Assembly (NCBI GenBank): GCA_037893225.1
Contig: JAZGUH010000731.1
Location: 620,001-684,000 of the forward strand
Source: Hippasteria phrygiana
Taxonomy: Eukaryota; Echinodermata; Asteroidea; Valvatida; Goniasteridae
Direction: 5' to 3'
DNA: 64,000 bases
Shown: one piece after another, positions 21,517 through 46,438 of the stretch
How positions within the stretch are numbered: the first letter of the stretch is position 1
Layout: the number at the start of each line of letters is the position of its first letter
Notes under the pieces: model-generated
What the model was told of the DNA's origin: nothing
The model's database searches: none
What the model saw: only the letters and a program-made list of their open reading frames with translations
Translations under genes and position numbers: made by a program

Positions 21517-21567
21517 ATGGAAGAGCGGGCAGATAGTCCCGTCGTGAGTGTGCAACATGTTTTTCAG
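21517..21567 (+). CDS. Clathrin-like exon 1
   Basis: ATG then 17 codons, MEERADSPVVSVQHVFQ, donor gtaaga, phase 0. SPVVSVQHVFQ joined to LQNYGV parallels human LPIRFQEHLQ-LQNLGI, and the junction appears to coincide with the vertebrate exon 1/2 boundary (from memory). It is 16.2 kb from exon 2, so linkage rests on sequence and phase only. Confidence 0.72.

Positions 21568-46438: not shown

Follow-up and report, generated by a model that had tools for sequence, protein, structure and literature searches.

Among described relatives of the clathrin heavy chain, the canonical chain CLTC (CHC17) and the vertebrate CLTCL1 (CHC22) carry leg repeats, a hub and a light-chain site beyond the terminal domain (TD), whereas CLHC1 (clathrin heavy chain linker domain containing 1), an animal protein made from part of the heavy chain, keeps the linker and is without the TD. 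A clathrin head without the trimerisation hub has been engineered: according to the available text of PMC7480105, isolated TD constructs (residues 1-494, or with the distal leg) compete for AP2 and SNX9, and their overexpression in cultured cells inhibits clathrin-mediated endocytosis, perturbing the AP2 and SNX9 interactions, with W-box peptides being the most potent. The same text describes a paradox in that known TD sites can be disrupted with endocytosis unaffected. Here we analysed a 64,000-nucleotide stretch of the sea star Hippasteria phrygiana (contig JAZGUH010000731.1, positions 620,001 to 684,000; hereafter the window) and, within it, a gene at 21517..46438 (+) that encodes a 375-aa clathrin TD and no legs. 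In contrast to CHC17 and CHC22, this TD-only protein stops at about human residue 358, without leg repeats, hub or light-chain site. It is also the half opposite to CLHC1, from which it is set apart by description and by having no match to the linker model. The engineered TD is some 120-135 residues longer and derives from canonical clathrin, whereas the natural family has altered grooves.

The sequence-only reading of this locus had claimed an in-phase chain of eight exons with GT-AG junctions ending in a TGA, and our rebuilt model reproduced that chain exactly: one frame of 375 aa closed by the TGA at 46436-46438, with 7/7 introns GT-AG, no internal stop and no frameshift. Exon 1 (21517..21567) holds the start codon and residues 1-17, and exon 2 (37779..37998) encodes blade 1 with the equivalent of R64. 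Exon 3 (40512..40667) carries the clathrin-box equivalents of T87, Q89, F91, K96 and K98, while exon 4 (43142..43272) carries the W-box equivalents of Q152 and I154 together with arrestin-box W164, and exon 5 (43878..44051) the arrestin-box equivalents of L183-F218. Exon 6 (45007..45120) is followed by exon 7 (45844..46017), with the final propeller strands, and by exon 8 (46331..46438), with the first linker helices and the stop; all eight exons are on the + strand. GC at the third codon positions of the model is 0.61, compared with a GC of 0.36-0.42 in the 4-kb blocks over 20001-52000. An approximate 354-aa join of the exons matched PDB clathrin TDs in phmmer at E ~2e-58, so the likeness is far beyond chance. 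Human TD found exons 2-5 and 7 by tblastn of the window at E 1e-8 to 6e-7 and exon 6 at 0.009, missing exons 1 and 8. Both of these are backed by the Patiria miniata orthologue, which is exactly 375 aa long and 90% identical end to end, with a matching first exon and C-terminus: exon 8 was matched by the Patiria protein at E 6e-15, and exon 1 by protein-sequence comparison, the two N-termini being similar.

The protein thus consists of the whole canonical-type N-terminal propeller and a stop just inside the linker, with no legs, as in the other TD-only proteins described below. As it ends at about human residue 358, the hub responsible for trimerisation and light-chain binding is absent. Hidden leg exons within the window were rejected, the best tblastn match of the human leg reaching only E 1.6, and the genomic DNA of the remaining 17.5 kb downstream of the TGA held none by the same search. 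Pfam returned no family at E <= 1e-3, Clathrin_propel and the linker domain included, for the window protein, and likewise none for the Patiria protein, whereas 6/6 other TD-only members scanned exceeded the cut-off. The absent match may partly explain why such proteins have gone unremarked.

A canonical clathrin heavy chain gene is present elsewhere in the same genome (944 Mb, 1285 contigs), on contig C13, the window being on C731. When the genome was searched for clathrin repeats, 16 candidates were scored and all nine matches lay on another contig. The canonical gene could be traced over human-equivalent residues 14 to about 1535, with its C-terminal end outside the traced stretch, and a pattern search for its exon 1 gave no candidate. 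The check proposed by the sequence-only reading, for a separate full-length heavy chain in this genome, thus came out with a legged gene on another contig, followed over residues 14 to ~1535. The TD of this gene is 85% identical to human, whereas it shares 34% identity with the window protein. The canonical TD introns fall after human residues 14 (phase 0, Q14|L15, with only its acceptor site observed), 83 (phase 1), 173, 227, 265 and 323 (all phase 0). The TD-only introns at 14, 83, 227, 265 and 323 agree with these in alignment column and phase. Another phase 0 intron lies 8 columns off canonical 173 in a gapped loop, and one extra phase 1 intron, after the protein's own residue 142 and before exon 4, is absent from the canonical gene. 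Exon 8 is homologous to the canonical exon that starts VLSV and ends APK, and is cut short by the TGA. Because introns are retained at canonical positions, a processed copy was rejected.

Database searches recovered relatives at E <= 1e-3 for 15/1403, 26/3673 and 29/6111 candidates, or 35 distinct proteins overall, named in the databases as "clathrin heavy chain-like" or similar. Those with a named source come from all five living echinoderm classes (Patiria, Asterias, Amphiura, Lytechinus, Diadema, Strongylocentrotus, Apostichopus, Anneissia and Antedon), the hemichordate Glandiceps, the chelicerates Tachypleus, Ixodes, Nephila, Stegodyphus and Uloborus, the myriapods Chamberlinius and Strigamia, Priapulus, the nemerteans Tubulanus and Lineus, and the molluscs Haliotis, Aplysia and Physella. 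The searches scored only candidates of 0.55-1.75x query length sharing short exact words and would therefore overlook distant members, or a heavy chain of full length that belongs to the TD-only type; within this filter vertebrates, insects and nematodes gave no match. Complete-looking members have about 370-407 aa; the Apostichopus model (340 aa) is without its N-terminus and the Strongylocentrotus protein (294 aa) is a fragment. Stops lie at human-equivalent 356-364 in 30/33 aligned rows, the human row itself stopping at 364. Three rows end earlier, Strigamia at 353, Priapulus at 324 and one metagenome protein at 266, and seem to be fragments or incomplete gene models. The existence of conserved relatives answers the objection that no orthologue might be found and, with the canonical introns, bears out the earlier claim that the gene is neither a processed copy nor a decaying pseudogene. 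The database model of one Ixodes scapularis member, P0014, has an LSm domain (PF01423) fused to the TD-only protein, which is probably a merged gene model, or else a real tick fusion.

In the trees, a branch with 100/100 support splits all TD-only rows from all canonical rows, that of the same genome included. The canonical gene of this genome clusters with human CLTC (100/99), and hence the TD-only protein is not the CLTC orthologue. TD-only rows of different phyla are monophyletic with the window protein inside, and their well supported branches track animal phylogeny, the order of protostome groups being weakly resolved. Approximately unbiased (AU) tests, in which the echinoderm TD-only rows were constrained to group with the canonical row of this genome, or the deuterostome TD-only rows with the deuterostome canonical ones, rejected an echinoderm-specific duplicate of the canonical gene (p 1.3e-6) as well as a deuterostome-specific one (p 1e-103), the latter also when repeated without the Drosophila, Arabidopsis, Ixodes, Priapulus and Strigamia rows (p 4e-36). 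These p values apply to groups picked after a first tree, for which the tree tool warned of long branches meeting, and the long stem separating TD-only and canonical groups calls for caution over long-branch effects. Evidence that does not depend on the tree comes from the shared stop position and length. Taken together, the window gene is almost certainly the sea-star member of an old bilaterian TD-only clathrin family that came from a DNA-level duplication of the clathrin heavy chain gene and, ahead of the protostome-deuterostome split, shed its legs by way of a stop in the linker exon. A legless paralogue conserved across several phyla points to an older, overlooked branch of clathrin. Among the matches listed, open-licence titles and abstracts do not describe such a family, which may be described elsewhere, and the word clathrin is absent from the main text of PMC9552553 and PMC7535936.

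The residues that line the four peptide-binding sites, as listed in the available text of PMC5182127 and PMC11543927, have fared differently. In the Royle box, F9 is replaced by I, V or L in 31/31 rows with a letter there. The W-box retains an aromatic residue at F27 (30/31) and V or I at I154 (32/33), with I170 changed to L in 33/33 and Q152 present as Q in 16/33 and as E in 13/33. The arrestin-box core is largely kept (W164 in 33/33, Q192 in 30/32, H229 in 30/33, I194 in 28/32), K245 being mostly N or S. In the clathrin box, R64 has become W in 24/32 rows and K98 is gone in 33/33 (R in two), while Q89 is kept in 21/33, F91 as F or Y in 31/33 and K96 as K or R in 23/33. According to the accessible part of PMC11543927, clathrin-box motifs are contacted in solved complexes, by salt bridge or hydrogen bond, through K96 and K98 in yeast and R64 in mammals. 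Across the family, random position sets were equally low in entropy in 0.71 of cases for the clathrin box and 0.67 for the Royle box, i.e. neither has extra conservation. Within the echinoderm clade (10 rows, one of which, P0006, owes its assignment to its tree position), the clathrin-box set ranks first among the four sites in conservation, with a mean entropy of 0.39 against 0.86 for all columns: W64, Q89, F91 and Q98 are found in 10/10 and H87 and E96 in 8/10, the two crinoids having Y87 and Q96 instead. Because it is conserved yet changed, this groove looks re-tooled and not decaying. Relative to CHC17, the TD-only proteins are a separate clade in which R64, K96, K98 and F9 are changed in echinoderms. 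The earlier suggestion that the protein could bind adaptor peptides calls for qualification: the clathrin-box basic residues in echinoderms and the Royle-box F9 are gone, and the W-box and arrestin-box core are mostly kept.

Starting from the observed gene structure, its conservation, the predicted fold of an orthologue, the absence of legs and the residue changes, we propose that the protein acts as a soluble, non-assembling reader of short linear motifs; we give this best explanation, identity and mechanism combined, a probability of about one half, the mechanism by itself being a suggestion at somewhat less than even odds. Without hub and legs the TD-only protein should stay out of the lattice, presumably in soluble form, yet the W-box and arrestin-box core that its propeller retains should let it dock partner peptides. 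In echinoderms docking should also use the clathrin-box groove, its chemistry altered and then held constant. Occupancy of these motifs would withhold some of the clathrin partners (SNX9-, AP2- or arrestin-like) from coats, or would reserve them for another task or hand them over. By analogy with the overexpressed TD, the natural head, having neither hub nor legs, could work through its W-box. It is conceivable, again at somewhat less than even odds, that the bilaterian ancestor had two heavy chain genes, a coat former and a legless head, and that the latter, now a dedicated regulator, reads a changed motif code and sets specific clathrin-partner traffic in echinoderms, molluscs, nemerteans and chelicerates, having been lost in lineages such as vertebrates, insects and nematodes, where no match was found. 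The family is also a natural counterpart of the endocytosis-blocking isolated-TD constructs described in the available text of PMC7480105, one that evolution has preserved with a single altered groove, locked in echinoderms. This makes it a means of learning which of the TD binding sites is important in animals.

Several observations weigh against a motif reader of this kind. W-box conservation is borderline, 0.051 of random sets being as low in the family and 0.109 in echinoderms, and extra conservation of the arrestin pocket as a whole was rejected as not significant (0.086 and 0.41). Q152 is E in the 13/33 rows noted above, molluscs and nemerteans among them, and Q192 is I in Apostichopus and the row beside it. 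The change in the clathrin-box groove is not family-wide, as position 96 stays basic outside echinoderms, and the echinoderm value for that groove (0.022 of random sets as low) belongs to one of four sites and is uncorrected. In addition, the available text of PMC7480105 reports no inhibition of uptake by arrestin-box (a2L) or site-4 peptides, and for most of the other TD partners in the literature it detected no binding to the overexpressed fragment; as the a2L peptide was silent, the arrestin-box core is disfavoured as an uptake-blocking route.

The likeliest alternative, though still an unlikely one, is a plain decoy: as a natural dominant-negative, the protein would vie with canonical clathrin for the standard LPhixPhi[DE] clathrin-box motifs found in AP2, epsin and amphiphysin and would in this way control how fast endocytosis runs. 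It draws on the block caused by isolated TD in cultured cells (PMC7480105, available text), on Q89 and F91 being kept in all 10 echinoderm-clade rows and on K or R at position 96 in the 23/33 rows outside echinoderms, but the motif-contact positions in echinoderms are W64, E/Q96 and Q98, and K98 and F9 are lost throughout the family to the extent given above. Because the clathrin box is changed, simple competition for LLNLD-type motifs is disfavoured, and judged from these residues a plain decoy seems less likely than a reader of altered specificity.

Less probable again is a role outside coats, in which a polybasic loop in blade 1 (37869-37883 (+), exon 2, protein residues 48-52) would target the echinoderm propeller to the nucleus or phosphoinositide membranes, there to scaffold other partners. 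All 10 echinoderm-clade rows have 5 Lys/Arg in this 10-residue loop, compared with 0-1 in 6-7 residues in five canonical rows, and the equivalent loop has 7/11 in the hemichordate, 5/13 in Strigamia and 7/24 in Tubulanus. The loop is thus a possible lipid-binding or nuclear signal in echinoderms; however, mollusc, spider and tick rows have no such loop (0-4 Lys/Arg in 9-19 residues), and a polybasic stretch by itself is no proof of targeting.

A structural role, with the protein binding canonical clathrin or light chains or capping coats and reading no motif, is improbable: the first linker helices are retained in the predicted model, but the clathrin trimer contacts are located in the part of the heavy chain that is absent here, as is the light-chain site (heavy chain 1267-1522 in the available text of PMC8712872). 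An artefact, whether a gene-model fragment, a pseudogene or the 5' part of a longer clathrin gene, could appeal to the 16.2 kb between exons 1 and 2 but is very improbable given the similar-length orthologues in several phyla, the similar stop in 30/33 rows, the 90% identity to Patiria, and clathrin-repeat matches (9 of 16 candidates) that all lie on another contig with no leg exons in the window.

Upstream of the TD-only gene, and head-to-head with it, lies the ribosome maturation gene SBDS (17396..20942, - strand), with SBDS_N, SBDS_domain_II and SBDS_C matches on four open frames; its low end is an open-frame end and not a mapped gene end. SBDS starts at about 20942, placing the two start codons some 575 bases apart, an arrangement compatible with one promoter region serving both genes and with where exon 1 lies, though no proof of either. 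Farther upstream, Ser/Gln-rich open frames extend over 3387-10440 (+), with a polyQ tract at 3387-3995 and a frame of 882 aa at 7795-10440. These gave no Pfam match and no meaningful PDB match; by eye they tentatively resemble part of a nuclear receptor corepressor (NCoR/SMRT). Beyond the TD-only gene, a 337-aa open frame at 58329-59339 (-) has a Lys/Glu-rich tail and no Pfam match. Between the neighbouring genes, an open frame at 15897-16460 (+) carries a DDE_3 transposase domain (Pfam E 1.7e-10).
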